From: a virus
DNA: 36,284 nt
Direction: 5' to 3' (one strand)
IMG/VR virus record: IMGVR_UViG_3300010885_061583
Location: 1-36,284 of that record
A program made the translations under genes and the position numbers. Of the stretch, positions 4,724 through 25,830 are shown piece after piece (positions within the stretch are counted from its first letter, which is position 1; every line of letters begins with the position of its first letter). A model generated the notes under the pieces. That model was given only the letters and a program-made list of their open reading frames with translations. It was not told the origin of the DNA and did not search any database.

Positions 4724-5389
4724 TTAAGAAGCCGAGCCTTTATTGTTTTGAGCGAACTCAACAAATTTGTAAAACTCAGCACGAGATTGATCCTTGTTAT
4801 CTAAAAATGCTCCAGACATACGAGCAGTTCTCATAGTAGAATCATGCTTAATGCCTCGATTAGAACAACAGGTATGATTAGCTTCAATCATAACTGCTAC
4901 ACCATTATTCTTTTCACATACCATATTAATATGCTCATGTACCTGGGCTGTCAAGTTCTCTTGTACTTGAGGTCTACGTGAAAACCAATCTACAATGCGA
5001 TTAAGTTTCGATAACCCAAGCACTTTACCTGACTTAGAAGGAATATAAGCTACGTGTGCCACACCAGTAAAGGGTGCGTGATGATGCGAGCACATCGAAA
5101 CAACTTTAATATTATTCTGACAAACGATACCGTCATACCCATCAACGTTATCAAAAGCAGTAACTTTAGGAGGATCGGTGTAACAGCCCATCGCTAAATC
5201 AGTTACAAAAGCCTTTGCTACACGCCTTGGTGTATCAGAACTATTAGGGTCGTTTCTCCAATCAAAACCAAGAGCATCTAAATACGCTTCATATGCCTTA
5301 GCACCATTTTCAATTAACTCATTAATCTCATCTGGAGTATGAGGGTTGTTATGATTAGCGTGTTGTAATTTCTTTTTATTTCTTAGCAT
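4724..5389 (-). CDS. folE: GTP cyclohydrolase I (FolE)
   Basis: FolE converts GTP to dihydroneopterin triphosphate, the first step of both folate and 7-deazapurine (preQ0) synthesis. The 221-residue sequence shows the family pattern: TPRRVAKAF near 53-61, [12 protein letters not shown] at 98-109 with zinc ligands C100 and H103, a [19 protein letters not shown] segment at 126-144, and NHTCCSNRG at 171-179 with the third zinc ligand and the conserved turn. The length is normal and nothing essential is missing. It starts 3 nt after the gp32 stop, so it is probably cotranscribed with gp32. In a phage that also has QueF and a DpdA-like enzyme, its likely role is supplying 7-deazaguanine precursors for DNA modification rather than folate. 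Confidence 0.95.
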
Positions 5390-10261: not shown

Positions 10262-11206
10262 CTACTGACCCATTGCTTTTTTTGTATAATATTTTGTATT
10301 ATACAAAACTGGTGGCAGCATATCAAAGGAGGTTGCCCGGGTTGGATTAATATCTAAAGAGCCTCTCCTAGAGTAGAGCAAGGTAACGCAACATGATTCT
10401 ACTTCAGGGTACTTCATAATTTCGGTATAAAGCTTCTCAGCACAAAACTCATGAAACTCGTTAACCTCTCTTAACGAGACTATTTGCTTAAAAAGTGTTT
10501 CTGGTTTGACCACACAATCAAGCGTATTAATTGAAATGTATGCTGCACCGGTATCTTTCTGCTTTGTATGTCTACAGCGGGATCTAAGAGCATTAGTAAA
10601 AAATTGATTCTTAAATAAAGCTTTATCATTTTTTATACTATAACCATAAGGGCTAAACTTAACTCTTTCAAACTCTAAATGGTTTTTTTCAGCATTGTAG
10701 TCATCAATAACTATATGCCCTAAATCAGCACCTAAAAAAGTTTGAAAATCAATATAACCTGCCATAGGAAATATACCGCATGCATCATCTCCTGATTTAA
10801 AAAATTTAACATCTACGTCTGTTTTAAGGGCTTCCTTAAGATCTTTCCGGACCTGGTCTTCGTAGTTAGCAACAGCTTCATCTACAGTAGATCCCATTTT
10901 ACACATATCAAATGTATTAAGATAAAGCTTAGCTGACTTTGACTCAACCATAAACTCGGAGTCAGAAGAATAGGTGTACTTTAAAGTGCCTGCAATAGGT
11001 GCACCATTCTCTAAAAGGAAAGTAGCTTCATGACAGTGCCAAGTGTCATAGCCAACGAATTCATCTCCTTTAATATCCCAGCCGTCTCGTGCTAATTTAC
11101 GAGGCATAGGGTTAAGTAGTGTTGGGTCAAATTGCTCGGTATAGACCGCATAAGATGCGGATGAACCAAGCGTTTTAGATGCAATATCGGTTAGGTTTGT
11201 GCTCAT
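10262..11206 (-). CDS. queF: QueF, NADPH-dependent preQ0 reductase (long form)
   Basis: QueF reduces the nitrile of preQ0 to the aminomethyl group of preQ1. The 314-residue sequence has the long, two-fold tunnelling architecture of E. coli QueF. The substrate motif ESKSAKLYLNTF lies at 88-99. The catalytic Cys is C211 in ALRSRCRHTKQKDTG, with the paired acid D218. A FHEFCAEKLY motif lies at 251-260 and a YSRRGSLDINPTR motif at 278-290. Every hallmark is present, so it should be active. It overlaps the upstream kinase gene by one base. In a phage with a DpdA-like enzyme, preQ1 is the likely base put into DNA. Confidence 0.96.
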   Translation of the reverse strand: MSTNLTDIASKTLGSSASYAVYTEQFDPTLLNPMPRKLARDGWDIKGDEFVGYDTWHCHEATFLLENGAPIAGTLKYTYSSDSEFMVESKSAKLYLNTFDMCKMGSTVDEAVANYEDQVRKDLKEALKTDVDVKFFKSGDDACGIFPMAGYIDFQTFLGADLGHIVIDDYNAEKNHLEFERVKFSPYGYSIKNDKALFKNQFFTNALRSRCRHTKQKDTGAAYISINTLDCVVKPETLFKQIVSLREVNEFHEFCAEKLYTEIMKYPEVESCCVTLLYSRRGSLDINPTRATSFDMLPPVLYNTKYYTKKAMGQ

Positions 11207-11751
11207 TATTTTAAATATTTTTTAATAGTTTTCATTCTCTCTTCTACAGAGCCACTAAGTCTTACTACTTTATCTCTATTCCACGGAGACATTTTATAAT
11301 CAATTAAGTCTTCAAAAATATCAATAACATCTGCTCTAAAGTTTTTATCAGTACCTCTCTCTCCGTCATCCACTAACTTCACGTCAAAAGGATCCGTATA
11401 AAAAACTAAATCAAGTTTATTAAACAAAGTACTAAACACAGCATTAAAAGCTTCTAGTACACTATGATTTACTTTCTTATTGTTAACTTGATACTTCGTA
11501 TAAACATATCCGTCTAAAATACATCTATCTAAAATTAAATTTTCTTCAGTTCTTAAATGATTCTTAATATGCTCAGCCAAAATATACAATTGAGTCTCAG
11601 ATCCACCCGCTTCATTAATCTTAACATCATAAGACTTACGAACGTAACGAGTAACTTCATCTACAAATTTATAATCTTTGTAAATTAACTTACACTCATT
11701 TAATAAAGTAGTCTTACCAGTACTCTGAGCTCCTGTAAATGATACTCTCAT
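11206..11751 (-). CDS. P-loop kinase/ATPase (AAA_28 or NadR-kinase-like) in the 7-deazaguanine cluster
   Basis: This 181-residue protein starts MRVSFTGAQSTGKTT, with Walker A at 7-14. It continues with a nucleoside-kinase-like pattern: LILDRCILDGYVYTKY around 97-112, LVFYTDPFDVKLVDDGERG near 135-153, and a basic C-terminal RDKVVRLSGSVEER. This resembles the kinase domain of NadR and the AAA_28 family. Its place between QueF and the formyltransferase, with a TAATG-type 1-nt overlap to queF, suggests it belongs to the DNA-modification pathway, perhaps phosphorylating a precursor. It could equally be an unrelated nucleotide kinase. The substrate cannot be read from sequence. Confidence 0.8.
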   Translation of the reverse strand: MRVSFTGAQSTGKTTLLNECKLIYKDYKFVDEVTRYVRKSYDVKINEAGGSETQLYILAEHIKNHLRTEENLILDRCILDGYVYTKYQVNNKKVNHSVLEAFNAVFSTLFNKLDLVFYTDPFDVKLVDDGERGTDKNFRADVIDIFEDLIDYKMSPWNRDKVVRLSGSVEERMKTIKKYLK

Positions 11752-11760
11752 ATATCTCTA

Positions 11761-12297
11761 TTATAATCTATCTTTTAAAAATTGACACCATAAATTTGAA
11801 GCTTCTCTATGAGTCTCTTTAAATATTTGATCTAAAGTATATCCTTTAACACTAAAACTATTTTCTGCTAATATTTCACCAGCATCAAGTTCAGGTATAC
11901 ATTTATGTATTGTATTACCAGAATATTCTAACCCCATATTAAATGTTCTTATTTGAGGATCTTTACCTTTTAAGAACTCATACTTAGATAAAGGAGCAGG
12001 ATGTAAATTATAAATTTCAAACTTATCACATATCTCAGGAGGTACTATTCTTAACCAGCCGTGTAATGTTACAAAGGAATTTTCAGGTATAGCTGTTAAA
12101 TACTCTTCAATTGTAGGCTTGTTAGGCGGTAAAAATATAATGCGATCAAAAAACTCATCAAGCAAGTTTTGATTGATAGTATCAATATTTTCAATAAGCT
12201 TATTCGTTATAATTACATCAGGAGCTTTTTTAAGAGCTTTAGATACATTGTAAATATCAGAGCCTGTCTGACTGAATAGTGTTACCCAGGGTCTCAT
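11761..12297 (-). CDS. Formyltransferase-fold enzyme (PurN/Fmt-like) next to DpdA
   Basis: I chose ATG at 12297, which overlaps the dpdA stop as ATGA; a TTG two codons upstream is possible. The 178 residues match the 10-formyltetrahydrofolate-dependent transferase fold. The catalytic triad of that fold is visible as N97 and H99 in YNLHPAPLSKY and D138 in PELDAGEIL. A LHGWLRIVPPE strand at 79-89 precedes them, and GNTIHKC at 127-133 matches the conserved beta strand. Known members formylate GAR or Met-tRNA. The usual C-terminal tRNA-binding domain of Fmt is absent. Coupling with dpdA and QueF suggests that it formylates the amine of preQ1, free or in DNA. That substrate is inference. Confidence 0.85.
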   Translation of the reverse strand: MRPWVTLFSQTGSDIYNVSKALKKAPDVIITNKLIENIDTINQNLLDEFFDRIIFLPPNKPTIEEYLTAIPENSFVTLHGWLRIVPPEICDKFEIYNLHPAPLSKYEFLKGKDPQIRTFNMGLEYSGNTIHKCIPELDAGEILAENSFSVKGYTLDQIFKETHREASNLWCQFLKDRL

Positions 12298-13124
12298 CGG
12301 CAAAGCTGTCTAAATTGCGTTACGTTGTAAAATGAATCAGCAATTTGTTGCTCAGTTAATTCAGCATCAATAAAGTCAATAAGTTTAACCGACCACTTTT
12401 CTGATAAGCCGTAATTAGGTTCGTATTTTTTACCTAAGATACCTGCAACAATAGGGTTAGATGTATCAATAGTTTCAATATACTCTGCAAGATCGTTATC
12501 CTTATAAAGGGCAAACTCCCATGGGACACTACACCCAAGAAGATGATGTGGTTTCTCAACATCTAGAACGTCATCGTTGTAAAGATCATTCAACAGCTTA
12601 ACACGACCTAAAGCATATTTAAACCACTTGTTTTCTTCAAGCTTATTAACATAACCCGGTAAGTTAAGATCTCCGTAAACGTAATTGTCGAGGTAATAAG
12701 AATAGTCAAAAGAAATAGCTACTTTATCTACTCTTGGTGCCACATACTGATAACAATCGACAATATCTTGGTATGACTTACCTTGAACAACACCAATCTT
12801 ACGACCAGGTAAATCAGGATACTTTGTTAAGAAGTTATTTAAAGACATGCAAGTATTAGTAACATCTTCTAATACATCCGGGATAACGTACTCGTAAGGC
12901 TTGAGCTCTTTAACCCAATATGCAAACTGATCTGGATCAAATGCTGTACCTAGCTCAAAAATAGAATTATCTAAGAGCACTCTACGTCCATGCTCGACAG
13001 ATTTAAAATAAAAGTCTTTGTACTTTTGATTCTCAGGAAGTAGATGTACTAAACAATAATCATAGTCATTGTAGCTCCAAGAGTAAGGAAGTAACGATAC
13101 GGGTGTTTCGTGTGAGATAAGCAT
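12294..13124 (-). CDS. dpdA: DpdA-like DNA 7-deazaguanine transglycosylase (TGT family)
   Basis: Enzymes of this family swap a guanine for a 7-deazaguanine base; phage DpdA proteins do this in DNA. The 276 residues show a TIM-barrel TGT pattern. RVLLDNSIFELG at 48-59 matches the DpdA 'LDNGAFE' motif with D52, and YVIPDVLED at 79-87 carries an active-site Asp (D83). IGVVQGKS at 110-117 is the 'QG' motif, KVAISFD follows at 134-140, and HHLLGCSVP at 193-201 is the 'HLLG' base-pocket motif. The zinc-binding end of bacterial TGT is absent, as in phage DpdA. It is followed by the formyltransferase with an ATGA overlap and preceded by gp43B. DNA rather than tRNA as target is inferred from family and context. 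Confidence 0.85.
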   Translation of the reverse strand: MLISHETPVSLLPYSWSYNDYDYCLVHLLPENQKYKDFYFKSVEHGRRVLLDNSIFELGTAFDPDQFAYWVKELKPYEYVIPDVLEDVTNTCMSLNNFLTKYPDLPGRKIGVVQGKSYQDIVDCYQYVAPRVDKVAISFDYSYYLDNYVYGDLNLPGYVNKLEENKWFKYALGRVKLLNDLYNDDVLDVEKPHHLLGCSVPWEFALYKDNDLAEYIETIDTSNPIVAGILGKKYEPNYGLSEKWSVKLIDFIDAELTEQQIADSFYNVTQFRQLCR

Positions 13125-13139
13125 AGTTAAAATAATAAA

Positions 13140-14654
13140 TCAATCTCCAAATAAATCAAATAAATCCGTTTGAACTTCTTTACCAATTCGAGGTATTCTC
13201 CATCCAATTGCATCATAAACAGCTTCGATAGGTGGTACAACAATTTTACCGAACATCTTATCGTAGTCAATCTTAATTTCGTGAAATTCTTTCGGATACT
13301 CACTACTAAAACCTACTGCATCTAAACCGTAAGGGTTCTTCATAGCATAAAAAAACTTAATCTTTTGCCCAGAGGTAATCTTTTCGTACTTTTTTTGTAT
13401 ATTCATCTTCTCTAAGAGAAAATTGTAAGCTAGAGCAGCTTTAACGTGACAGGGTGTACCTTTGTTAAATTTATGTAAAGAAGCTTCAGCAGAATATTTT
13501 TCTAATTCTTTAGCCGCTTTACGAAAAGCAGCTTCAGATATATCAAGCGTTTTAAAATGGTCATAAGCTTCACGAAATACCTCGTTAGTTTTTTTTACAT
13601 CCTTTGAAAGAAAAGCTGTATCAATAGTCTTCTTGATAAGAGCTTTAACCTCTTTCGGTGTTGTTGATCGAGCTAACTCTACTCCTACGTATTTAAACTT
13701 ACTAGTAGGAACGCCCTCTTCATCAAGGATATGAAGAATATAACGCTTCTTCATTAAGAATGAACCTACGTCAGCAATAGCTTCACGCTTAAACTCAAAT
13801 CTTGGATCTGCAGAGTTAAGATCAGTCTTAGCCCAATTAATAATCTCTTTGTTGAGATGATCTCCCATTGCATCAACAATCTTATGCACCTCTGGAGTAA
13901 TAACATTATCAATAGTAAGCGGTATATTAAGCTTAGTAAGAATCGGTTGAATGGTGGTATAAAGCGAGTCGGTATCTCCTGCCAGGATTAAAGACTCAGT
14001 TACCCCGAACTTCTCTTTAGCCCATTTATCAATAATAGCGGCTCCAGCCTTAGCAACGGCTTGACCTGTAAGAGTAATAGACGAAGCGTTATCAATATCC
14101 ATAAACGCTGAATGTTTATTAGCAAACGTACCGTAAATAGAGTTGAGAAGAATCTTCAACGTATATTGCAGCGTATCGAAGTATTGAATCTGAGCGACGG
14201 TTTCATTATCTTTCTTCTTTGTCTTTTTAAGCTTAATCATCTCATTACGAGCATAAACTCGCTCGTCATAGATGCTATTAATCAAATTAGGACAAACCCC
14301 TTTAAACTTTTGAGAGTAAAGAACACCTGCTTTAGATAGAGCTACATTTTCATCTTTTAAAAACGTCCTAAGTTTATCAACAGTCACTTTAAATATGCCA
14401 CCTGACTCAAGTCTAATCTCTACATCTTTGTCGTATTCAGGATCACCTGTAACAATTTTACCAAGTTTAGTCTCTGAACCAATGTTAAGAGTAATAATGG
14501 TATTAGTATACAGAGAGTTAACGTCAAACGATACAATAGCTTCTTTAAGACCTCTTTCAGGGTCTCGTACAAAACCACCCTCTAAAGACTCACGATCTGT
14601 TTCATTCTTAAAAGTAGGTATGATGTATCCTTGTTTTTGTGCCTGTAGCGTCAT
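13140..14654 (-). CDS. gp43B: DNA polymerase family B, C-terminal polymerase part (gp43B)
   Basis: This 504-residue protein is the polymerase half of a split T4-type gp43. Motif A is SFDVNSLYTNTI at about 42-53 with metal ligand D44. Motif B KILLNSIYGTFAN is at 167-179, and motif C AGDTDSLY at 225-232 carries D227 and D229. The C-terminus ends VQTDLFDLFGD, a clamp-binding peptide like the T4 gp43 SLFDMF end. Motif A reads SLYT where most family B enzymes have SLYP. It starts at ATG 14654, overlapping the gp43A stop as ATGA. The exonuclease domain is in gp43A, so the two products should assemble. Together the parts total 848 residues, near the T4 length of 898. Confidence 0.94.
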   Translation of the reverse strand: MTLQAQKQGYIIPTFKNETDRESLEGGFVRDPERGLKEAIVSFDVNSLYTNTIITLNIGSETKLGKIVTGDPEYDKDVEIRLESGGIFKVTVDKLRTFLKDENVALSKAGVLYSQKFKGVCPNLINSIYDERVYARNEMIKLKKTKKKDNETVAQIQYFDTLQYTLKILLNSIYGTFANKHSAFMDIDNASSITLTGQAVAKAGAAIIDKWAKEKFGVTESLILAGDTDSLYTTIQPILTKLNIPLTIDNVITPEVHKIVDAMGDHLNKEIINWAKTDLNSADPRFEFKREAIADVGSFLMKKRYILHILDEEGVPTSKFKYVGVELARSTTPKEVKALIKKTIDTAFLSKDVKKTNEVFREAYDHFKTLDISEAAFRKAAKELEKYSAEASLHKFNKGTPCHVKAALAYNFLLEKMNIQKKYEKITSGQKIKFFYAMKNPYGLDAVGFSSEYPKEFHEIKIDYDKMFGKIVVPPIEAVYDAIGWRIPRIGKEVQTDLFDLFGD

Positions 14655-15685
14655 TCTCCGGTTACAATCGAAACTTTACCTAAAGCTCTTTCAAAGTTTG
14701 TACATCCTTTATAAGACAGCAATCGAATAATCTTCAAGTAGTTTAACTTCTCTTCAAGCTTACGGAGTAGATCAACGTCCTGAATATTGTAGTCTACAAA
14801 GTTTTCCCAATCAGTTTCAGATAGAGATGAAAGATTCGTAGCGTTAATAGCAAGTTTACCTTCACCAAGTTCATACTCACAGATATAGTTAAGAGAAAAA
14901 GATTCGCGATCTCCTTTAGAATACGTCTTGTAAATTTCCATGTAGTCTAAACAACTAACACCCGAAATATACCAGCGTCCTACCTCTTTACCAAACTTAG
15001 CAAAGTTCTCTCTATAGTGCACCTGGCCAACGGGGGACAACTGCTTAATGAAGTCTTCTCCAAGTAAATTCTTAGCACGATTGATAATATACGGAATATC
15101 AAACTGCTCAGTGTTCCAGCCAGTTAAGATATCAGGTGGATCCTTTTTCCAAAAATTAACAAACCTCTCAAACAACTCACCTTCTGTTTTGCAGCAATAG
15201 TATGTAACATTGTCAAGCTTGGGTTTGTAGTCATCTCTAAGACCCCATGTATGAATTTTATTACTGAGTGTATCAAGCACTGTTATAAGATTCACCGGGT
15301 CTTTGGCGTACTTCGGGATGGGGAACGCACCCGGAGAATACGTCTCAATATCAATAAAAAAAACCTTAAGAGGTAACCTACTAAAGTCTTGATCGTGCAC
15401 TTGCTCTTTAAACCTATCAACAAGGAACTGCTGATCTACGGCCAGATTACCAAACAATCGAGGGTTCTTAGTTTCCTGTACAAACTTAGTACGTTCAAAG
15501 GTATTTCTAAATGTATATTTCTTAAGAGGTGTTTTAAAAATAGAGGTAGCGTCCTTACCGTCTTTGTGCTCTGTAAAGAGATAAGGGGTAAACGGAACTT
15601 CTGTATCAATACGGTGTCCGTCATCAGTCCAAGTCCTTAAAAAGACAGTACCTTCTCGTGGGTTATATGATGCGTTTCTATACAC
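14651..15685 (-). CDS. gp43A: DNA polymerase family B, N-terminal and 3'-5' exonuclease part (gp43A)
   Basis: This 344-residue protein holds the N-terminal and proofreading domains of gp43. Exo I is FIDIETY with D112 and E114, Exo II is GWNTEQFDIPYI with D196, and Exo III is YNIQDVD with Y299 and D303. The exonuclease is therefore intact. It ends with FERALGKVSIVTGE just before TGA. In unsplit relatives this segment continues into the LQAQKQGYIIPTF stretch that begins gp43B, so the break falls in the connecting region without lost sequence. The start is GTG at 15685, 14 nt after the upstream stop; no in-frame ATG lies nearby. The break could be natural or a one-base sequencing deletion. Confidence 0.92.
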   Translation of the reverse strand: MYRNASYNPREGTVFLRTWTDDGHRIDTEVPFTPYLFTEHKDGKDATSIFKTPLKKYTFRNTFERTKFVQETKNPRLFGNLAVDQQFLVDRFKEQVHDQDFSRLPLKVFFIDIETYSPGAFPIPKYAKDPVNLITVLDTLSNKIHTWGLRDDYKPKLDNVTYYCCKTEGELFERFVNFWKKDPPDILTGWNTEQFDIPYIINRAKNLLGEDFIKQLSPVGQVHYRENFAKFGKEVGRWYISGVSCLDYMEIYKTYSKGDRESFSLNYICEYELGEGKLAINATNLSSLSETDWENFVDYNIQDVDLLRKLEEKLNYLKIIRLLSYKGCTNFERALGKVSIVTGE

Positions 15686-15699
15686 TAAGGAATATGATA

Positions 15700-16950
15700 C
15701 TATCTTCCTGGGTTAGTTTCAAGCAAATATTTGCGATCAGGTGAACCTAGCGGGGTAAAATATGCCTCATGATGTTTCATAAGGTTCTTTTCATCCTCTA
15801 GCCAGAAGTTATCGGCATATGCTCTAGACTTCTTACAATAATCGGCATAAACAGACTGATTTTTTGTAGCCGTTTTAATACAATCAATAAACTCGTCTGG
15901 TGTTGAATATTTTAAGAACGCGTCTTTATACGTAACCATATCCGGGCATACACAAGGTATACCTAAAGCAGCGGCTTCGAGAAGTTTAATATTTGATTTA
16001 GCTCTATTGAAGTTGTTATCTTGAAGAGCAGCAAAAGTTAGTTGAGTACCAGAGGTTGCCATAGCTCCAGGAAATTCTGGAAGAGGTACCCATTCATGAA
16101 ATTCAATTTCCCCTCTGTCAATAAATGGCTTAAGAGGTAAAGGATAACAACCATAAAACTTCCATTTAAAATCTTTTCTAGCTTTAATAATAGCTGGTAC
16201 TACCATTTCGAAGTCATCTTTTTGCCCTGTACGGTTTGTTACATCTACGTGAGTACCTGAAGCAAAAATAGAAACAATAGGTTTCTTTTTATTTTTTTCA
16301 AAGTTCTTAACTAAATCGCCGAGATTGTAGTAACGATCAAACCACCATTTAAGGAGATAGTTTGGAATAACTGTAGCTTTTTTAGTACCAGTTTTTTCGT
16401 TAAAGTAGTCCTTCATAAAATCACATGTAACTGTGATCTCATCACACATATCAAGAATTTCTAAAATTGAATTACGAATTTCATCTGCAACGAAAGCGTC
16501 TTTATTGCGATTAAAGTCAGGAATATCTTCTCTAAAAACAATATCGTCAATTTCGTAAATAAGCTTAAAACCTGCTTGTTTAGATATCTCTTTAAGCATC
16601 TTAACAAAGTCTCTTTGAACAGGTGTAGCTTGACGTTGTATCTTAATGGCCCGCACACCTTGATAGAATCTTGGATCAAGAACCATAGTGGTAAGTTCTA
16701 GCATTACTGCTTTTTGATACAGGTTGAGCATTAGATTGGGTGCCATGCAACGATACCAAGAACAGCCTCCGTAATCGGCTAAGTAGTTAATAGCTCTAGG
16801 TAGCCCTTCACCTGGTATCTCAGGTGGAGGTAGACCAGGCCCTTGATTTACTTGAAGAACCTGGGATGTTGTTGGTATAAACGGGGGTAAACCAATAGGT
16901 GCACCCATAAGTTGTGTAATGCCGGATTGCTGGACAATATAGTTTGACAT
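15700..16950 (-). CDS. GT-B glycosyltransferase (GT4-like) between gp46 and gp43
   Basis: This 416-residue protein has a Pro-rich, probably flexible N-terminus (1-50, with LPPFIPTTSQ and GPGLPPPEIPGEG) followed by two Rossmann-like domains. The second contains KPIVSIFASGTHVD near 223-236, a FHEWVPLPEFPG segment at 284-295 and the donor-binding RAKSNIKLLEAAALGIPCVC run at 316-335, which is typical of GT4. FKLIYEIDDIVF at 128-139 is also typical. It would transfer a sugar from a nucleotide donor. It sits alone in the core replication block, 5 nt after gp46 and 14 nt before gp43A, so it is expressed with DNA metabolism genes. The acceptor is unknown; DNA, protein or glycan are all open. Confidence 0.88.
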   Translation of the reverse strand: MSNYIVQQSGITQLMGAPIGLPPFIPTTSQVLQVNQGPGLPPPEIPGEGLPRAINYLADYGGCSWYRCMAPNLMLNLYQKAVMLELTTMVLDPRFYQGVRAIKIQRQATPVQRDFVKMLKEISKQAGFKLIYEIDDIVFREDIPDFNRNKDAFVADEIRNSILEILDMCDEITVTCDFMKDYFNEKTGTKKATVIPNYLLKWWFDRYYNLGDLVKNFEKNKKKPIVSIFASGTHVDVTNRTGQKDDFEMVVPAIIKARKDFKWKFYGCYPLPLKPFIDRGEIEFHEWVPLPEFPGAMATSGTQLTFAALQDNNFNRAKSNIKLLEAAALGIPCVCPDMVTYKDAFLKYSTPDEFIDCIKTATKNQSVYADYCKKSRAYADNFWLEDEKNLMKHHEAYFTPLGSPDRKYLLETNPGR

Positions 16951-16954
16951 GAAG

Positions 16955-18751
16955 TTATGTTAATATATAAGTGAAATTATTACGCTTTTCCAGAAAAACA
17001 GTATTATCAATTTTTTCAGTTATTGCAGTACCACGGTGTGTAATTATATAGCAATTTTCGTTGTACATTTGAGCTCGCTCTCTTAAAACATCTAAAACAA
17101 GCTCTACACCCTTATCATCTAAAGAAGAGTCTAAAAGTTCGTCGTAGAAGATAGTACTAAAATGAACGTCCCCTTGCATACGGCGAATATCTAAGAACGA
17201 GAATAAACAAGCTAAATCAATTCTTTTTCGCTCACCGCCAGAAAAATTAAAATAAGACTTTTGTTCACCTTTTTCATCTGTAATTAACTCGTCAAAATAT
17301 TCATTAAATTGGCATAAACAGTTTGCATGAAGTTTATCGAGATAGTAAGCCATTCTACCATTAAGTACAGCTAAAATCTTCTTGACAATATAAGACTTAA
17401 CACCTTCTTCTGAAACTACAAACCTAACTACTTCAAGAACGGAGCAATCGTGATCTAGTTTTTCTAGTTCTTGTTTACCAATTTTAAGCTTTTCTTCTAA
17501 ATCTTTTACCACTTCTTCTAGTGCTTTATTAGACTCATTTTTAACTTGCTTAATTTCTTTTAAAATACTTTGAATATTTTCTTCAATAAAAGTAATTTTA
17601 GTACCGATATTATTATTACTGTTTATAACATCTCTTATAACATTTTTTTTGTCCTGGATATCTTTAAGTTCTTTTTCTTTTTTAGTTTGATCTATATTGA
17701 TCTTATTAAGAGCTTTTTGAGCTGTATCTAGTTCTTTGTTAAGCTCTTTTAATTTGTTAACAAGTTCTTTTTTGTTAGATTCTTTATGGTTAAGGTCATC
17801 TTTAGAGTACGCTCTTTTACAAGTTGTACAAATGGCTCCTACCTTATCAATTTCTTTTAACTGATCATCAACATGACTAATTTTACTCTTAATATCAGCC
17901 AAGTCGTTATAAGCTGCTTTATAAAGCTCCTGTATTTGCTTTAATTCATTATTAATTTCTTCTTCTTTTGTATTAAGCTTTTCAATAACATCATTGGGGA
18001 GCTGTTTAATTTCTTTTTTAAGATCTTCAATTTTTTGTTTATTTTCTTCGATGCGTTTTACAAGAGCATCAATTTTTTGTCTTTTATTTTCTTCAAAAGC
18101 ATCGAGTTGTTCTTTGTTAAAATTATACCCTTTTTCTATACCTTCTATCTTGGTAAATAAGACTTCATAATCTTTTTTAAGTTCGTTATGTTCTTCTCGA
18201 GCTTTTGATAACATATCTGAAAAGATCTCAAGACTGAGAATGCTTTCAATAAATTTACGCTTATCAACTTTAGACTGTGCCATAAAAGGAACAGTTGTGT
18301 TGATTGTCATAATGACTGAGTTTTGAAAAATCTTGCCGTTCGATAGAACTAATTTTTGAATATACTCGTTTGTTTTTGCCATTGTTGAACGGGTGATATC
18401 TTCTCCGTTTCTTGTCATAAAGCATTTTGTTGGATTAATAGATCTTACAATCTTATATTCTGATTTTCCGTTACCGTTTTCAATAACAAGAGTTAAAATA
18501 ACTTCACATTTTTTCTTAGTAAAAGAATTAACTATTAGGTCTTTACTTAGCTCTCTAATAGTTGTTCCAAAGAGTGCAAAGTAAAGAGCATCAGCAATTG
18601 TAGATTTACCTACACCGTTCTTAGAGTCTTCCTTATCGTAATTAATTCCGGTAATAACATTAACACCAGGTTGAAAATTGATAGTTACTGGTGTCTCTCC
18701 GACAGAAAGAAAGTTCTTGATCGTAAGAGATTTAAAATTTACTAACCGCAC
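16955..18751 (-). CDS. gp46: Recombination endonuclease subunit gp46 (Rad50/SbcC-like ATPase)
   Basis: Gp46 is the ATPase partner of gp47 in the complex that resects DNA ends for T4-type recombination-dependent replication. The 598 residues have Walker A SKNGVGKST at 43-51 and long coiled coils on both sides of a zinc hook C308-T-T-C311. The ABC signature FSGGERKR is at 503-510 and Walker B FYDELLDSSLD at 535-545. Length and architecture match T4 gp46 (560). The start is GTG at 18751; no better ATG is in frame. In T4 the gp47 gene lies close by upstream; here about 15 kb of glycan genes intervene. A 64-nt gap with a TATAAATT element at 18790-18797 precedes the gene and may carry its own promoter. 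Confidence 0.95.
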   Translation of the reverse strand: MRLVNFKSLTIKNFLSVGETPVTINFQPGVNVITGINYDKEDSKNGVGKSTIADALYFALFGTTIRELSKDLIVNSFTKKKCEVILTLVIENGNGKSEYKIVRSINPTKCFMTRNGEDITRSTMAKTNEYIQKLVLSNGKIFQNSVIMTINTTVPFMAQSKVDKRKFIESILSLEIFSDMLSKAREEHNELKKDYEVLFTKIEGIEKGYNFNKEQLDAFEENKRQKIDALVKRIEENKQKIEDLKKEIKQLPNDVIEKLNTKEEEINNELKQIQELYKAAYNDLADIKSKISHVDDQLKEIDKVGAICTTCKRAYSKDDLNHKESNKKELVNKLKELNKELDTAQKALNKINIDQTKKEKELKDIQDKKNVIRDVINSNNNIGTKITFIEENIQSILKEIKQVKNESNKALEEVVKDLEEKLKIGKQELEKLDHDCSVLEVVRFVVSEEGVKSYIVKKILAVLNGRMAYYLDKLHANCLCQFNEYFDELITDEKGEQKSYFNFSGGERKRIDLACLFSFLDIRRMQGDVHFSTIFYDELLDSSLDDKGVELVLDVLRERAQMYNENCYIITHRGTAITEKIDNTVFLEKRNNFTYILT

Positions 18752-18815
18752 TTCTATGAGTATAGTGGGTTTAAAGGTTAAATCAAATTAATTTATAGCT
18801 ATTGTATGTTGCTAA

Positions 18816-20390
18816 TTAAAGAATATTAAGAGTACTCTCAAAATATTCTTTCCAATAGTTATATGTCTGATAATCATCCGGTGTACCCCAACAAATATAA
18901 TTAGAGACTTCAAAAACTTTTATATTAAGGCCTATTTTAATACATTGATTAATTACATCATCAACATAATATTCGCCGTTAGTTGTAATATTTTCATTGT
19001 AATTTTTAAATAATCCTTCAGAAAAATATTTTGCCTTCCTAAAAAACATAGTACCAATAATAGCATGAGTCTTAAGAGGATCTTTCCCTACAAACTTCTT
19101 GCACGATACATTCGTTACATTATTAAATTCATCAACTTGTAGCCACGAATACATACCCGGGTTAACTTTACTGGTCTGATTATTTCTAAACGACCATACA
19201 ATTACATCAACCGTTTCATTATCTACTAGCTGCTGATATGCTACTTCATCATACGTTACTCCATTATCACACGCGGAGATTTGAATCGGTGTATTACTAT
19301 CTATATTAGCTTTACTAATACCTAATTCACATGTACATGCTTGACCTGAAGTTGTTTCATTAATTTCAATAATAAGTGTATTTGTAAAATTATTATGCAA
19401 TTCCTCTCTTAAATTATACCCATTTAAATGATCTTTAAGACAAATAAACACTGATGAAGAGCATTTTGGTAAGCAGTTAACAGCTTGTACAATCATAGGT
19501 AAACCATCAACATCTAATAATGGTTTTGGTTTTTTATAATTTTGTTTTGAAAAACGACTACCTCGCCCAGCCATCGGTAAAATCAGTACAGTACCGGTAG
19601 GGTTTATGGCTTTTTTTTTCTTGGTATATTTTTCTTTAAAATATTTGAGCCATGATTGAAATACTTCTAAATCATATGGTGTACCCCACTGTAACATTTT
19701 TTGAATTTCAAAAATGCCTACATTTAAACCATCGCGTACAAGTAAATTATAAACTAAACTTACATAATACTCTCCATTTAAACTTAGCCCCTTATCCATC
19801 GCCTCCTTAAAATATTTCTTAAGCATGCTTCCACTCTTAAAATAATAGGTTCCGTTGGATGCATACTCACTCATTTTATCTGCAGTGAATGGTTCTTTTT
19901 CTTTAATTTGAATTAATACTTTGTTTTCTTCTTTGCAAAAAGCGTAGTTATCACTTCCAAGCATATGTGGATGAAATCCTGTATAACACGGTATCATGCC
20001 GTCGTAGTTTTTTACTGCAGATAAAAATTTCTCAAAATCCCAGACAGTCCCGTAGTCGCAATAACTTACAATAATCTCGGCTGTATTATCAATATAATCT
20101 CTTACTTGGTAAATAGCATCAACTGGGCCTTTTCGGTTCTCAGTTGATACTTTTACGATTGTACAGTCTGGCATAATTTCCCGTAATTTAGCTTCAATAT
20201 CATTGTTTTTAATATGCTCTTCATTGCATATAAATAAAACGCTATTAACACCAGGAAATAAATTTACTACATAATCAATAATCGGTTTATTGTTAATTTT
20301 TATGAGTGGTTTCGGGTCAGTGTAACCGGCTTCAATAAAACGCTTACCTATACCTGACATGGGTATTACTAGTTGTATATTTCTCGACAT
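18816..20390 (-). CDS. Tandem sugar-nucleotidyltransferase (two NTP-transferase domains)
   Basis: The 524 residues contain two copies of the sugar-phosphate nucleotidyltransferase fold. Domain 1 begins with IPMSGIGKRFIEAGYTDPKP at 9-28. Domain 2 begins with LPMAGRGSRFSKQNYKKPKP at 271-290. Both carry the G-x-G-x-R-F nucleotide loop and a Pro-Lys-Pro that contacts the base. Each has an acidic motif (SYCDYGTVWD and SACDNGVTYD), a NGEYYV segment and a closing WGTP-D motif. The duplication is therefore complete and both halves look active. The enzyme would make one or two NDP-sugars for the island's glycosyltransferases. Sugar and nucleotide are not readable. It starts 59 nt from the divergent TylF-like gene, so the gap holds divergent promoters. 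Confidence 0.88.
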   Translation of the reverse strand: MSRNIQLVIPMSGIGKRFIEAGYTDPKPLIKINNKPIIDYVVNLFPGVNSVLFICNEEHIKNNDIEAKLREIMPDCTIVKVSTENRKGPVDAIYQVRDYIDNTAEIIVSYCDYGTVWDFEKFLSAVKNYDGMIPCYTGFHPHMLGSDNYAFCKEENKVLIQIKEKEPFTADKMSEYASNGTYYFKSGSMLKKYFKEAMDKGLSLNGEYYVSLVYNLLVRDGLNVGIFEIQKMLQWGTPYDLEVFQSWLKYFKEKYTKKKKAINPTGTVLILPMAGRGSRFSKQNYKKPKPLLDVDGLPMIVQAVNCLPKCSSSVFICLKDHLNGYNLREELHNNFTNTLIIEINETTSGQACTCELGISKANIDSNTPIQISACDNGVTYDEVAYQQLVDNETVDVIVWSFRNNQTSKVNPGMYSWLQVDEFNNVTNVSCKKFVGKDPLKTHAIIGTMFFRKAKYFSEGLFKNYNENITTNGEYYVDDVINQCIKIGLNIKVFEVSNYICWGTPDDYQTYNYWKEYFESTLNIL

Positions 20391-20436
20391 CTTTTATAAG
20401 AGTAATTTAAATTAGTGTATAATCCACTGAAAGTAT

Positions 20437-20444
20437 TATAAATA
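20437..20444 (+). promoter_or_regulatory. T4-type late promoter before the TylF-like gene
   Basis: TATAAATA on the plus strand is an exact match to the T4 late consensus. It is in the 59-nt divergent gap, 5 nt before the ATG at 20450. A start about 6 nt after the motif would give an almost leaderless mRNA. It is the only candidate on the plus strand and drives the only plus-strand gene. Confidence 0.5.
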
Positions 20445-20449
20445 AGTGT

Positions 20450-21091
20450 ATGAGTTTAGAATCTATTATACACAAACAGCGCTACGACGTAGTTCAACAT
20501 AATGTTGACTTTTTAAATAATAAACTATATCTTGAATTTGGTACACATCATGGCGCATCTATGCTTGAGTATTATAGTCTATATAAGGAGTTCGATATAA
20601 AATCTTTTTTTTATGGATTCGATTCATTTCAAGGATTACCGCCCGAGCCAACTGATACTTTAAGTCATAAAGTATGGGAACCAGGTGATTTTAGTACAAA
20701 TAGTAATATTAACCCTGAACTTCTTAACAAACCAGGGTTAAAAATTGTTGATGGTTGGTTCTGTGATACACTAACCGATGATATTGCAAAAGAATTTGGG
20801 GATTCTAAAATTGGATTATTACATATTGATTGTGATATATATACTTCTACAATGCAAGTATTAGAGTTTATTGTAAAAAATAAATTACTAGTAGATGGCT
20901 CTATTGTAGTTTACGATGATTGGGGTGGTTGGCGTCAGGCAGGGTTAACAGAAGATCAACAGTATGATATAGGCGAAGGCCGTGCACATCGTGAGATTTG
21001 TGAGAAATATAATTTAAACTTTGAATTAATTAATAAGGTTGTACCTGCAACAGATTTCTACGAAATTGCGACATTTATATACAGAGCTTAA
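20450..21091 (+). CDS. TylF/MycF-like O-methyltransferase (macrocin O-methyltransferase family)
   Basis: This 213-residue protein is the only plus-strand gene. It matches the TylF family of metal-dependent sugar O-methyltransferases. The SAM loop YLEFGTHHGASM is at 27-38, and a GFDSFQGLP motif at 56-64 is typical of the family. LLHIDCDIYTSTM at 123-135 gives the acidic metal site and VVYDDWGGW at 153-161 gives the paired Asp. Family members methylate sugars on macrolides; related enzymes in capsule loci methylate polysaccharide sugars. It lies convergent to the class II aldolase, sharing a TTAA stop overlap, and is fronted by an exact late promoter motif. Reverse orientation inside an otherwise uniform cluster suggests it arrived or is regulated separately. 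Confidence 0.9.
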   Translation: MSLESIIHKQRYDVVQHNVDFLNNKLYLEFGTHHGASMLEYYSLYKEFDIKSFFYGFDSFQGLPPEPTDTLSHKVWEPGDFSTNSNINPELLNKPGLKIVDGWFCDTLTDDIAKEFGDSKIGLLHIDCDIYTSTMQVLEFIVKNKLLVDGSIVVYDDWGGWRQAGLTEDQQYDIGEGRAHREICEKYNLNFELINKVVPATDFYEIATFIYRA

Positions 21092-21744
21092 ACTAATATA
21101 GACTGTCTATATATTTCTTTTTGATCGGTTTTAATAGTCTGAACACTCAAAGAGTCTAGGCTATTTGTTTTTACGAGTAATTTTGTACCTAAAAAAATTT
21201 CTGCTGATTTTTCACATATTTCACTTGCAAATATACATTGTTTATATGAGTTAGCAGCGCATATTATACCGTGATTTTCTAACAAGATTACTTTTGGAAA
21301 ATGCTGTTCAATTTCTATAAAATTTGTAACGCTATATTTAATTCGGTTAAGTAAGTCATCTCCTGGCATTGCGTACGGCACTATACAAGATCTCTCACCA
21401 TTATATACTACTTGATCGGGAAATAATCTTATTTGAGCAAATTCTTTAACAAAATCTGAACATAATATCTTTAATGTGTTTGTAGGATGAGTGTGAGCAA
21501 TAAAATTAATGGAAGGGTGTTCATATAGCCATGCGTGAAACCCTGTCTCTATACTTGGCTGTTTATCACTACTATCAATTTTTTGGCCTCTATTATCACA
21601 TAGTACAATATCATTAATTGTAAGTACTCTCATATCAGATCCACTAGCTTTAATCGCGAATCCGCTATTTGTTCTTTCTGATACATTTCCTTCAGCCCCT
21701 ACTACAAGCCTTGAAACGCTAGATGCTAGCTTTATTAAATTCAT
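21088..21744 (-). CDS. Class II aldolase/adducin-family enzyme
   Basis: The 218 residues fit the class II aldolase fold, whose members cleave or epimerise sugar phosphates (for example L-fuculose-1-phosphate aldolase). The motif GNVS is at 19-22, IKASGSD at 31-37 and SIETGFHAWLY at 64-74. Zinc ligands are H84 and H86 in HTHP and H158 in ENHG. All zinc-binding residues are present, so it should be active. It lies last in the HAD-GDPD-GT61 run, 2 nt from the upstream gene, and shares the stop tetranucleotide TTAA with the convergent TylF-like gene. A role in making or salvaging a deoxysugar precursor is inferred; the substrate is not readable. Confidence 0.9.
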   Translation of the reverse strand: MNLIKLASSVSRLVVGAEGNVSERTNSGFAIKASGSDMRVLTINDIVLCDNRGQKIDSSDKQPSIETGFHAWLYEHPSINFIAHTHPTNTLKILCSDFVKEFAQIRLFPDQVVYNGERSCIVPYAMPGDDLLNRIKYSVTNFIEIEQHFPKVILLENHGIICAANSYKQCIFASEICEKSAEIFLGTKLLVKTNSLDSLSVQTIKTDQKEIYRQSILV

Positions 21745-21746
21745 TA

Positions 21747-22724
21747 TTAAATGGTAGCACCTGTTAATTCAGTATCAACTATTTGATATGTGAATTTAGC
21801 ATTCTTAAATTGATTGATAATTTTTCCATTATTAACAAGATGGTTATATTCCCCAATAAATTCAGAACCTACTATATAAACAATTACTTCTTTACACTTA
21901 CCTGATATATAAATAAAATTTTTCATGAACGTGGATCCCCATGAGCATATTAATTTTTCGCAATTACTAATCATTTTAATTAGTTGAACCTCATTAAGCT
22001 CAGAAGGTTCAACTAACTGTAAATTATGTTTATTGCAGAAGTTACGTGCTGTATCAATACTAATTGCTCCCATTGAGGAAGATATACAAGACCCGTAATG
22101 TTTTAAAATAGCTATATTTGTTACATTATCGTTAATATTATATTCATCCGGAAGAGTATAATCAAATATATACTGCTGCAGGATTTCTGATACACTATCC
22201 CGTATTGATGTACTCTCAAAATAGCTATGTAAAGTATTAGGTATTATGGTAATACTACGAAATTTGTAAATAATATCATGTTCAAGAAATATAATTTTTG
22301 TCTTTATAACACCGATTTGCTGAAAGTGTTTGATAATATCATGCATACCTTTTTGCGATCCTTGGTATAATGCTATTGTTTTACCCTCATATATATTAAG
22401 ATGATTAATATAATTCGTTAGTATACTAAGTATTCCTGCATATCCATGAATAGATGCAGGAAAAGCAGTTATAAACGGTATAATGTCTTCATCAATAAAT
22501 TCTGCGCGTTGGTTATTTTGTTTAATATAATTTGAAATCGGTCCCGCATCTTGATAACTTCCATCACCTATTAGGTACAACCAATCATTCGAATGCTGTA
22601 TAGTGTCGTAACTATCTGTAACACCTAAACACGCATATCCTTTTCTCACACAGCTATAATTTATAAAAAAGAAAGCATTATTGTGAGGTAATAGCTCAAT
22701 ATAATCTGTTGTGTTGTTGCTCAC
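21747..22724 (-). CDS. GT61-like glycosyltransferase, second copy in the island
   Basis: This 325-residue protein starts with GTG at 22724, overlapping the GDPD-like stop as GTGA. Its C-terminal part resembles GT61 (DUF563) enzymes. An IAILKHYGS strand at 204-212, a segment with NLQLVEPSELNEVQLIKMIS at 234-253 and the glycine-serine donor loop LICSWGSTFMKNFIYIS at 258-274 correspond to the 'YVSRR' and 'GAIGGGL' regions of the first copy at 28608. The usual Arg pair of YVSRR is missing (HYGSC instead), so it is divergent. It may be a glycosyltransferase with a different acceptor or an inactive relative. The match is moderately sure. Confidence 0.6.
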   Translation of the reverse strand: MSNNTTDYIELLPHNNAFFFINYSCVRKGYACLGVTDSYDTIQHSNDWLYLIGDGSYQDAGPISNYIKQNNQRAEFIDEDIIPFITAFPASIHGYAGILSILTNYINHLNIYEGKTIALYQGSQKGMHDIIKHFQQIGVIKTKIIFLEHDIIYKFRSITIIPNTLHSYFESTSIRDSVSEILQQYIFDYTLPDEYNINDNVTNIAILKHYGSCISSSMGAISIDTARNFCNKHNLQLVEPSELNEVQLIKMISNCEKLICSWGSTFMKNFIYISGKCKEVIVYIVGSEFIGEYNHLVNNGKIINQFKNAKFTYQIVDTELTGATI

Positions 22725-23164
22725 ACTTTAACATAATCGGTACAGACACCATATACATAGTTAATATGTTTAAACTCTCGCATATCCGACTCTGACAGAA
22801 GTGGAATTATACAGTTAGTATTAAGTGTTGTAGTTAGGTCGTGTACCCATAAATGTCCAGTACTGGTAATAATGTACGGGTCAGCGGTATGACAAAAGTA
22901 TTTTGAACCCACAATCTTTTTTAATTCGTATACTGTTTCAATATTCTTGCAATGAAGCCACAACCTTTCTTTGCGTAAATTGATCCATGTATTAGAAACT
23001 TCGTAATCTGGCGTGTCATGACCGAGCCAAAACTTATTATTTATAAACCTAATATCTATCTCAACATCGTAACCGAGTTGTAGAGCGCAGTCTATGTAGG
23101 ATGGACGATTCTCTTTTGACTCAATAGGGCCTATTATATTTCCTCTATGAGATATAATCTTCAT
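22721..23164 (-). CDS. Compact GDPD-like phosphodiesterase
   Basis: The protein has only 147 residues, against about 240 for usual glycerophosphodiester phosphodiesterases. The N-terminal motifs are intact. HRGN at 6-9 gives the catalytic H6-R7, KENRPSY at 17-23 matches the family 'PENT' motif, and VEIDIRF at 34-40 gives the metal acids E35 and D37. LGHDTP at 47-52 supplies the general-acid H49. The end YGVCTDYVKV matches the family's final 'TDYP'-type strand, so the middle of the barrel is shortened rather than the end lost. It could cleave a phosphodiester in a glycan or lipid. ATGA and GTGA overlaps couple it to the HAD and GT61-like genes. Confidence 0.75.
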   Translation of the reverse strand: MKIISHRGNIIGPIESKENRPSYIDCALQLGYDVEIDIRFINNKFWLGHDTPDYEVSNTWINLRKERLWLHCKNIETVYELKKIVGSKYFCHTADPYIITSTGHLWVHDLTTTLNTNCIIPLLSESDMREFKHINYVYGVCTDYVKV

Positions 23165-23454
23165 ATTTCATCAATTCTTAGCGTTTTATCATCAACAAAA
23201 AGATCATAATACGGTTTATCTACTTTTAGTTCGCTATATTTTGCGCCCCATTCTGCTAACTGGTTTTTTGTTAATTCATACCAATCTATTTGTTTACGAC
23301 TACCTCTCGATGTCCAATAAACAACTGTATTGCCTTCATCATATAACTTATTAATTTTTTCAATATTTTCTTTTATTGGAATTGCTTCTGCGTATTTTCT
23401 ACTATGCGGGCTCGTGCAGATTGTTTCATCTATATCTACATAGATAATTTTCAT
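23161..23454 (-). CDS. Minimal HAD-family phosphatase
   Basis: This 97-residue protein is a capless HAD enzyme. Motif I is DIDET with nucleophile D7 and general acid D9. Motif II is YWTSRG with T48 or S49, the lysine motif is in KVDKPYYD near 77-84, and motif IV is FVDDKT with D88 and D89. Small proteins of this type occur in capsule and LPS loci, where they remove phosphate from sugar phosphates. It begins the four-gene subcluster HAD-GDPD-GT61-aldolase behind an exact TATAAATA motif and couples to the GDPD-like gene through ATGA. All catalytic motifs are present. The substrate is unknown. Confidence 0.85.
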   Translation of the reverse strand: MKIIYVDIDETICTSPHSRKYAEAIPIKENIEKINKLYDEGNTVVYWTSRGSRKQIDWYELTKNQLAEWGAKYSELKVDKPYYDLFVDDKTLRIDEI

Positions 23455-23467
23455 ATTGTATATAATA

Positions 23468-24937
23468 TTATTTATAATTTACTATAGGTAATGGCAAGTT
23501 TAAAATAATGAATGAGATATAATCATAGTAAGAATTAGATTTAGGTATATTTTTATTAAAAATAAAATCTACTAATTGATATTCTTTGAACGTAAATTTA
23601 TAAAATTTACCTACTACTTCTAATTCGTATTCTAGTTTTACCTTATTGAATATCTCTAATATATTATCTATATTATACTTTCTATCAACTAAAACTTCTA
23701 AACTGACAGACTCCTCCTTACTTAAATCATCAACTAAAACAGTGTCATACGAAAAAAATCTAATTATTACATCAGCATATTTTTTTTGTGGTAATATATG
23801 AGTGTAATAATCTTCCTCTCGCTTAGCTATTGAACTTAAGACTTGCTGTATTGTATAACCTCTTTCATTTACATCTCTTTTAACCTTCCATTTTGTTTTA
23901 AGAGAGCGCTCAGTGTCCATAAAGATTTTTAAATCATATATAGATCCTTGATTGATATATAAACTATGTAACCCGCAAACGATTAAATTATCTGATGAAT
24001 TAACGGGCTGCGATGTAGTAAACTTACCAGAATCGTGATTATAATCTACTTGATATATGGTATTGCCCATTTTTAAATTAAAAACATCGCTTTGCATTTT
24101 GGTTATATGGTTTGCTGTAGGGTTTAAATGTGTTATTGTTTTCCAACTATCATCTGATCTTTCCCATTTATGATATCTATCGCCTTCAAGTACTACAGAA
24201 TTACAAAACAATTTTTTTAATATATTACTTAGAACGCTCTTACCTGCACCAGAGTCTCCACAAATAGCTATAGTATTACACTTTGATAAAATAAAAGAAT
24301 ATTTTATATCCTTAAGTTCGTATCGTATATTTTTGCTAGTTAAATGATAATACAAGAGTGTTTCAGAGACATTTCCATATGTTAATATTAAATGTTTAAT
24401 ATTTTCAAATATACTAAAGTAAAGATTCATTGCCGAAGAAGGACCATAAGCAAAAGCATCACATAAATGTGGATCTTTAGGTTTTAATAATTTACTATTA
24501 TCTATTTTACTATCGTGCGGTACGGTAATTACATCACTTAGCTCGTCAAAGAAGTCTAGATTCTCAAGAGAAATATCTGGTCTATATCTAACCACAAGAT
24601 CATATTCCTTACCGGTAATTTGTTCGTTTATGCATTTAAGAGTGTTCAATTTATATAGTTTAACCCAATGATTAATCGTGTTATTTGATGCTCTATCATT
24701 AGTGTATAAAATATTTGATTCTGTTATCACTGATATAGGAGACAATATATCAGTTATTTGTTTAAAATCTTTTTCTTCTTCAATTAAGTTAAAATATTTG
24801 TCTTGATTATTTTCATCTTTAGTTACATGTAAGTAAACATCTACCTTACTATACTTTTTAAGTAGACTTTCTTTTATATACTCTACATTAATAGTATAGT
24901 TTCTCAGATAACCTGCAATTAAAAGCGCAACTTTCAT
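23468..24937 (-). CDS. Fusion of glycosyltransferase-like domain and PRK/uridine-kinase-like P-loop kinase
   Basis: The 489-residue protein joins two domains. Residues 1-215 resemble small glycosyltransferase-like proteins (MKVALLIAGYLRNY at the start and YDLVVRYRPDISLEN at 112-126). From 222 a P-loop kinase follows, with Walker A GDSGAGKS at 227-234 and EGDRYHKWERSDDSWKT at 251-267. Then come IYQVDYNHDSGKF at 294-306, CGLHSLY at 321-327 and the lid KRDVNERGYTI at 353-363. These are marks of the phosphoribulokinase/uridine kinase family, where the Asp/Arg segment binds substrate. A further 90 residues of unclear type close it. The order suggests a phosphorylation step tied to a transferase step. 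Couplings are ATGA upstream and a promoter-like TATAAATA at its end. Confidence 0.82.
   Translation of the reverse strand: MKVALLIAGYLRNYTINVEYIKESLLKKYSKVDVYLHVTKDENNQDKYFNLIEEEKDFKQITDILSPISVITESNILYTNDRASNNTINHWVKLYKLNTLKCINEQITGKEYDLVVRYRPDISLENLDFFDELSDVITVPHDSKIDNSKLLKPKDPHLCDAFAYGPSSAMNLYFSIFENIKHLILTYGNVSETLLYYHLTSKNIRYELKDIKYSFILSKCNTIAICGDSGAGKSVLSNILKKLFCNSVVLEGDRYHKWERSDDSWKTITHLNPTANHITKMQSDVFNLKMGNTIYQVDYNHDSGKFTTSQPVNSSDNLIVCGLHSLYINQGSIYDLKIFMDTERSLKTKWKVKRDVNERGYTIQQVLSSIAKREEDYYTHILPQKKYADVIIRFFSYDTVLVDDLSKEESVSLEVLVDRKYNIDNILEIFNKVKLEYELEVVGKFYKFTFKEYQLVDFIFNKNIPKSNSYYDYISFIILNLPLPIVNYK
23469..23476 (-). promoter_or_regulatory. T4-type late promoter before the HAD-GDPD-GT61-aldolase subcluster
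   Basis: TATAAATA on the minus strand is an exact consensus match, located 14 nt before the HAD ATG at 23454 and overlapping the last codons of the upstream fusion gene. This is the largest gap for many kilobases in the island. It would permit separate late transcription of the four downstream genes. Confidence 0.5.
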
Positions 24938-25830
24938 TCTAGTAGTTTATCAAAACATTTTATATTTATATCTTGCATCCCTTTAATAATTTCTTTAAGT
25001 TTTGAATTAGTAAAAATTTTATTGAAATAATATTCGTAGTTATCAGCTACATCTTTTACTGTTTGTGCAATATTATCATACTTTGACCATACAATGTATT
25101 CCCCATAAGGAATTTTTTCTTTTAAAGGTACATCTTCACTCACTACTATAACTCCATTAAGTAGAGCTGGTAATACTCTTAATTCTTCAAATGTATGATG
25201 ATAATCGGTTTGGTGAACGTTTATCAATATTTTTGCACGCTTATATATATCATAAAGACAATCGTTTGTGTAGCAGTTACTTATTGACGTATGCTCAACG
25301 CTAAGCTGTTTCAGGTAGTTTAATATCTTTAATCTTCTCTGATTTGAATTATCGGTAAACAGTGTGATAATGTTTTTTCTTTCTTGTGAAAAAAAGTTAT
25401 ATGCAAAGAGTAGCGGTGATATGTATATATTTTTATCTAAATATTCTTTAAATAAACTATTTGTTGATAAGTTATATATATTAGGCAAACTATACTCTAT
25501 AACATAATCGAGGCTGTTGTAGTAATTAAAATTATCTACTCGTATCAGATACGTACCGTTATCGTAGGGTACATTGCCGTATATTAATTGCTGCACGGAG
25601 CGACCGCCCACTTTAACTAATGTGTGTTCACATTGTATATCAATTTTTATTGTTTTATTTGTATTATTAAAAGTGGGGCTGTAGTTACCTACTATAACAT
25701 TAATACAGATATTATTTTTAGCTAACCACGCTTTAAGTAAATTGACGGTGTAATTATAATACTCTTGTATTATAACGTTGTAATTATAATCATATACTAT
25801 AACTGAGTCTTTAACTTGTTCAATTACCAT
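24934..25830 (-). CDS. GT-B type glycosyltransferase, 298 residues
   Basis: The C-terminal half matches the donor-binding domain of GT4-like enzymes. A DIYKRAKILINVHQTDYHH stretch at 194-212 leads into TFEELRVLPALLNGVIVVSE at 213-232, where the FEELRVLPALL helix resembles the 'EGFGLVVLEAMA' type sugar-nucleotide loop with altered residues. The first 150 residues are divergent and rich in Asn and Tyr. It is shorter than full GT4 proteins (about 370), so the N-terminal domain may be reduced. It overlaps its upstream neighbour by 7 nt and its downstream one by ATGA, within the long operon starting at gp47. It would add a sugar to an unknown acceptor. Confidence 0.72.
   Translation of the reverse strand: MVIEQVKDSVIVYDYNYNVIIQEYYNYTVNLLKAWLAKNNICINVIVGNYSPTFNNTNKTIKIDIQCEHTLVKVGGRSVQQLIYGNVPYDNGTYLIRVDNFNYYNSLDYVIEYSLPNIYNLSTNSLFKEYLDKNIYISPLLFAYNFFSQERKNIITLFTDNSNQRRLKILNYLKQLSVEHTSISNCYTNDCLYDIYKRAKILINVHQTDYHHTFEELRVLPALLNGVIVVSEDVPLKEKIPYGEYIVWSKYDNIAQTVKDVADNYEYYFNKIFTNSKLKEIIKGMQDINIKCFDKLLE

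Follow-up and report, generated by a model that had tools for sequence, protein, structure and literature searches.

A recurrent phage cassette predicted to place formylated preQ1 in DNA, with a kinase as its near-constant partner

Four adjacent genes in an IMG/VR virus record are likely to encode the late steps of a phage pathway that modifies DNA with a 7-deazaguanine and yields DNA carrying formylated preQ1. Judged from the proteins that these genes encode, guanine in the DNA of this phage is very probably replaced by a 7-deazaguanine with a formyl cap. One of the four genes encodes a P-loop kinase, which belongs to the core of the system and is not a bystander. Loci of the same kind suggest that preQ1 formylation is spread widely, as a cassette, among uncultured phages, and natural variants with or without the formyl step predict different DNA chemistries.

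Formylated preQ1 in phage DNA is a chemistry reported before and would not be new in kind. Cui et al. 2023 (NAR 51:9214) reportedly found 7-(formylamino)methyl-7-deazaguanine (fdPreQ1) in phage DNA, are said to have proposed a formyltransferase, DpdN, and reportedly defined a DpdA3 subfamily for which guanine replacement is complete. The likeness to that system lies in the same predicted chemistry: a DpdA and a formyltransferase with 7-deazaguanine pathway genes. DpdA3 is the subfamily name that presumably applies to the transglycosylase described here.

The gene set and its transglycosylase

The window, that is, the whole IMG/VR record of 36,284 bases (32.6% G+C), encodes the four genes and FolE:

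12294..13124, minus strand: DpdA-like DNA (or nucleotide) guanine transglycosylase, 276 aa; AlphaFold model matches TGT and DpdA 7ui4
11761..12297, minus strand: single-domain 10-formyl-THF-type formyltransferase, 178 aa, candidate preQ1 formyltransferase, DpdN-like; Formyl_trans_N
11206..11751, minus strand: P-loop kinase of the AAA_28 / NadR-kinase / deoxynucleoside-kinase group, 181 aa; AAA_28 and fold matches
10262..11206, minus strand: bimodular QueF, predicted NADPH-dependent reductase of preQ0 to preQ1, 314 aa; QueF_N and QueF
4724..5389, minus strand: FolE, GTP cyclohydrolase I, which starts preQ0 synthesis, 221 aa; GTP_cyclohydroI 3.4e-48

A first-pass annotation of this DNA had described the DpdA-like, formyltransferase, kinase and QueF genes as an adjacent set with three overlapping or nearly overlapping junctions and with FolE about 5 kb away. 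This description held. The four open reading frames make up one minus-strand run in which the DpdA-like and formyltransferase genes overlap by 4 bp, the formyltransferase and kinase genes are 9 bp apart, and the kinase and QueF genes overlap by 1 bp; FolE is 4.9 kb off, and its position near gp32 is kept in relatives. The sequence of the first overlap is ATGA, through which the formyltransferase is translationally coupled to dpdA. For the formyltransferase start, the ATG at 12297 is better than the TTG at 12303 given by the mechanical ORF list.

The DpdA-like protein had no sequence match in Pfam, NCBIfam or PDB. Because a sequence profile comparison with E. coli TGT and the DpdA of phage 9g gave a signal too weak to use, a fold search was needed. 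With the AlphaFold model (pLDDT 94) as query, tRNA-guanine transglycosylases were the top matches (E 2.4e-7, probability 1.00), with the solved DpdA 7ui4 in eleventh place (E 6.5e-6); the 276-aa protein is thereby predicted to have a TGT/DpdA-type fold. D52, D83 and D220 are invariant among 28 diverse relatives and Q114 is nearly so, and the order of the motifs suggests that these correspond to the catalytic and base-binding residues of TGT. The homologue in the Flavobacterium phage immuto carries a DpdA annotation, and those in Campylobacter Firehammerviruses are hypothetical proteins. The protein is acidic (pI 4.67), which might argue against DNA binding; we rejected this reading, as the DpdA of 9g, with a pI of 5.64, and E. 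coli TGT, with one of 5.97, are acidic too.

The window also contains T4-like replication genes (DNA polymerase B, RecA/UvsX-like, DnaB-like helicase and gp32) and a T4-type terminase; 12 kb of it compared by megablast with phage records gave no match. The polymerase, at 13140-15685, is divided between two ORFs that overlap (344 and 504 aa), whether naturally or through a sequencing error, and in the related contig L048 a single 863-aa ORF is found in the same place. Sugar-related genes lie at 15700-28608: a glycosyltransferase-like gene, a two-domain nucleotidyltransferase, a TylF-type methyltransferase, a class II aldolase, a PRK/uridine kinase-like gene and a GT61.

The formyltransferase, QueF and the predicted base

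The formyltransferase matched Formyl_trans_N (1.6e-11). As the first-pass annotation had claimed, its catalytic N97-H99-D138 set is intact (numbered from the ATG at 12297), and the three residues are invariant in 30 diverse relatives. The annotation was also right that the protein has no tRNA-binding domain, since a length of 178 aa leaves no room for a C-terminal one. A Formyl_trans_N fold with the Asn-His-Asp triad, as expected of DpdN, is thus predicted. Compared with the curated NCBIfam models of known formyltransferases, the protein scored under every cut-off; the best model was PurN, with 38.8 bits against an equivalog cut-off of 150.1 bits.

One possibility is that this enzyme acts on a different substrate: GAR in purine synthesis, an amino sugar or a tRNA. 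PurN is its best model, though far under the cut-off, PurN-like genes are present in cyanophages, and sugar-related genes occur in the same window. We consider this very unlikely, however, as the protein reaches the cut-off of no known formyltransferase model, the ATGA overlap couples its gene to dpdA, the gene travels inside the cassette on unrelated backbones, and it is missing together with QueF in one clade (see below).

QueF matched both QueF_N (5.6e-22) and the QueF domain and could be aligned with solved bimodular QueF over almost the full length, while its score against the NCBIfam equivalog was 162.8 bits, under the cut-off of 293.45. The active-site residues C211, D218 and H252-E253 and the NADPH motif ESKS at position 88 are present, so that the Cys, Asp and His-Glu of the predicted active site and the NADPH motif are all accounted for. 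With these motifs intact and the alignment with the solved enzyme running nearly end to end, QueF should therefore make preQ1. In phages with QueF homologues, dPreQ1 has been demonstrated in DNA (PMC6884629).

The remaining preQ0 genes, QueD, QueE and QueC, were not found within the 36,284 bases, and the phage may still encode them elsewhere. In the longer related contigs, QueD was found in 17 of 20, QueE in 16 of 20 and QueC in 11 of 20, and no QueC was found in the nearest relatives (contigs of 75-112 kb). QueD and QueE are probably located outside the 36 kb fragment, as in relatives.

In the pathway that we propose, FolE (encoded here), QueD and QueE (probably outside the fragment) and QueC (from phage or host) would make preQ0, which QueF would reduce to preQ1. 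The formyltransferase would cap the aminomethyl group of preQ1 with formyl from 10-formyl-tetrahydrofolate, and its acceptor would be preQ1 as the free base, as a nucleotide or in DNA. DpdA would swap guanine for the modified base, and formylation may come before or after this insertion. DNA with formylated preQ1 would be expected to resist nucleases that read guanine, a protective role for the modified base; 7-deazaguanines shield phage DNA from restriction (PMC6884629).

Recurrence of the cassette

We scanned IMG/VR with alignments of DpdA and of the formyltransferase and with single sequences, and kept the best loci. A search of other phages for the same gene pair, suggested in the first-pass annotation, recovered it from immuto and from IMG/VR contigs. 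The whole order DpdA-formyltransferase-kinase-QueF recurs in immuto and in dozens of IMG/VR contigs, and the cassette is found on at least three unrelated phage backbones. When the neighbors in 34 representative loci were clustered, only DpdA, the kinase, QueF and the formyltransferase were broadly common, and the flanks belonged to several unrelated backbones. The same gene order on unrelated backbones therefore argues for a functional cassette, which behaves as a single unit, not for chance.

The closest named example is immuto (vB_FspM_immuto_2-6A cluster, NC_055915, here L001), where FolE, QueD and QueE are upstream of the same four genes and the protein identities are 44% for DpdA, 47% for the formyltransferase, 32% for the kinase and 35% for QueF. 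It differs in its backbone, with DNA polymerase A instead of B, and in having a PRA-PH pyrophosphohydrolase two genes upstream of DpdA. In the Campylobacter Firehammerviruses CPt10 and CP220, DpdA belongs to the same family (38-40% identity) and the same kinase comes after it, with neither formyltransferase nor QueF beside them; dADG has been reported in the DNA of Campylobacter phages (PMC6884629). In CPt10, an HD phosphohydrolase fused to a P-loop domain is encoded directly upstream of DpdA (L002:6867-7898). The dG+ system of Enterobacteria phage 9g (DpdA1) is similar in having FolE, QueD, a QueE-like gene, a QueC-type gene and DpdA. In contrast, its DpdA is only distantly related, no QueF or formyltransferase is annotated near DpdA, and no homologue of the kinase was found in the whole 9g record.

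Among the matches listed, 93 distinct rows of the DpdA tree were obtained: 65 with formyltransferase, kinase and QueF, 23 with kinase and QueF, four with the kinase only and one with formyltransferase and QueF. Since these rows share ancestry, the counts show how constant the gene content is and should not be read as independent trials. Presence of the formyltransferase requires about four changes on the DpdA tree. All 66 of the listed rows with a formyltransferase also had QueF, and the four listed rows without QueF had no formyltransferase either. A formyltransferase without QueF was seen once, in a MAG contig (L192) with DpdA and the formyltransferase and with no kinase or QueF in the ~7 kb downstream.

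One clade (L045, L047 and L048) has kept DpdA and the kinase and has neither formyltransferase nor QueF. L048 retains the backbone of the window, that is, the polymerase, DpdA, kinase, a 125-aa gene, RecA and DnaB. The occurrence of the formyltransferase only with QueF (the MAG contig excepted) and the clade that lacks both therefore support preQ1 formylation. Taken with the predicted active sites and the coupling to dpdA, this recurrence and joint loss are consistent with the formylated preQ1 first put forward for this locus.

As a separate observation, a Hint/intein domain interrupts the RecA/UvsX-like gene of L048 (L048:9926-10753).

The kinase

The first-pass annotation was correct in listing a P-loop kinase; it gave the protein no role, yet no other gene accompanies DpdA as constantly. 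It accompanies DpdA in 92 of the 93 distinct loci among the matches listed, including loci without formyltransferase or QueF. Among the listed loci that were picked up by DpdA alone and had at least 3 kb downstream, 58 of 59 had the kinase, at a distance of 3 kb or less in 55; three of four MAG loci had it as well. The protein matched AAA_28 (5e-16), as did all 45 of the kinase relatives, and the fold matches of its model were dCK, dNK, dTMP kinase and the NadR kinase domain. Although the fold is similar, the score against the NCBIfam dTMP kinase was 17.1 bits, with an equivalog cut-off of 83.25. In tblastn searches the operon kinase matched only Campylobacter, Flavobacterium and Streptomyces phages, and QueF-bearing Vibrio phages were not matched. 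Streptomyces phages of the Karimac type have a related kinase with no DpdA or QueF annotated around it; the kinase family therefore exists also outside the cassettes.

Most likely, the kinase would phosphorylate a (deoxy)nucleoside or nucleotide of the 7-deazaguanine pathway. To our knowledge, the scheme of Cui et al. 2023 has no role for a kinase. We found no discussion of a kinase in 7-deazaguanine DNA modification in the literature searched, and the word "kinase" is absent from the main text of Hutinet 2019 (PMC6884629).

One possible role bears on the route of the base into DNA and does not conflict with formylated preQ1. DpdA might swap the base of a mononucleotide, or a deoxynucleotide of the modified base might arise in some other way; the kinase would then carry it towards the triphosphate and the polymerase would insert it. 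Formylated preQ1 would enter as a modified analogue of dGTP and take the place of every guanine at replication, unlike in post-replicative DpdA systems. A post-replicative transglycosylase needs no kinase, and the constancy of the kinase beside DpdA, even where the formyltransferase, QueF or both are missing and in CPt10 as well, would be accounted for by such a route, as would complete replacement of guanine. Phages T4 and SPO1 load modified nucleotides and encode dedicated dNMP kinases. The predicted fold, shared with deoxynucleoside and dTMP kinases, fits the same role, as do the lack of a kinase homologue in the DpdA1 phage 9g and of tblastn matches in the Vibrio phages with QueF. A modified-dGTP route is mentioned as proposed for Campylobacter phages in Hutinet 2019 (PMC6884629). 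On the other hand, the known substrates of TGT-family enzymes are polymers, and the fold here is of the TGT/DpdA type. Insertion is, in the published view, post-replicative, and no conserved dGTP-removing enzyme was found in the related records. We regard both entry at the nucleotide level and replacement of all guanines at replication as unlikely. The near-obligate kinase nevertheless points to an unsolved step, namely how some phages replace guanines completely, and it makes nucleotide-level replacement directly testable.

A companion dNTP-removing enzyme like that of Z-genome phages was considered and rejected, the HD, MazG and PRA-PH domains not being conserved. PRA-PH was present in four of 22 records, which make up the immuto-like group; these (MazG-like) pyrophosphohydrolases lie near DpdA (L001:11273-11797, L187:8173-8673 and L188:4390-4884) and could act on a pathway nucleotide.

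Another possibility gives the kinase no part in base insertion: it would be a nicotinamide riboside kinase of the NadR kind, or else a general dTMP/dNMP kinase, and would serve to raise NAD(P)H for QueF or to enlarge the dNTP pool. The kinase has the AAA_28 family and the VDDGxRS motif in common with NadR, a second paralogue is found by QueD-QueE, sometimes near an NMNAT-like gene, and another copy in CPt10 is beside the dUTPase. However, the operonic copy remains with DpdA where QueF is lost, which speaks against NADPH supply for QueF, the Vibrio phages that have QueF were not matched by tblastn, and a general enzyme need not track dpdA so closely. We find this explanation doubtful, if somewhat easier to entertain than entry at the nucleotide level. 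A phosphorylation step within the 7-deazaguanine pathway is the role that we favor.

The second AAA_28 paralogue was observed in contigs with a separate QueD-QueE cluster (L174-L185), where it adjoins QueE or is one gene off, next to QueD, in 11 of 12 (for example L174:2288-4321 and L175:3881-5905). In some of these contigs an NMNAT-like (CTP_transf_like) gene is near QueD (L174:1302-1928, L175:6220-6831 and L176:5975-6589). The short N-terminal leaders on these NMNAT-like genes resemble the leaders of several small neighboring proteins; perhaps they direct proteins to the capsid for packaging with the DNA.
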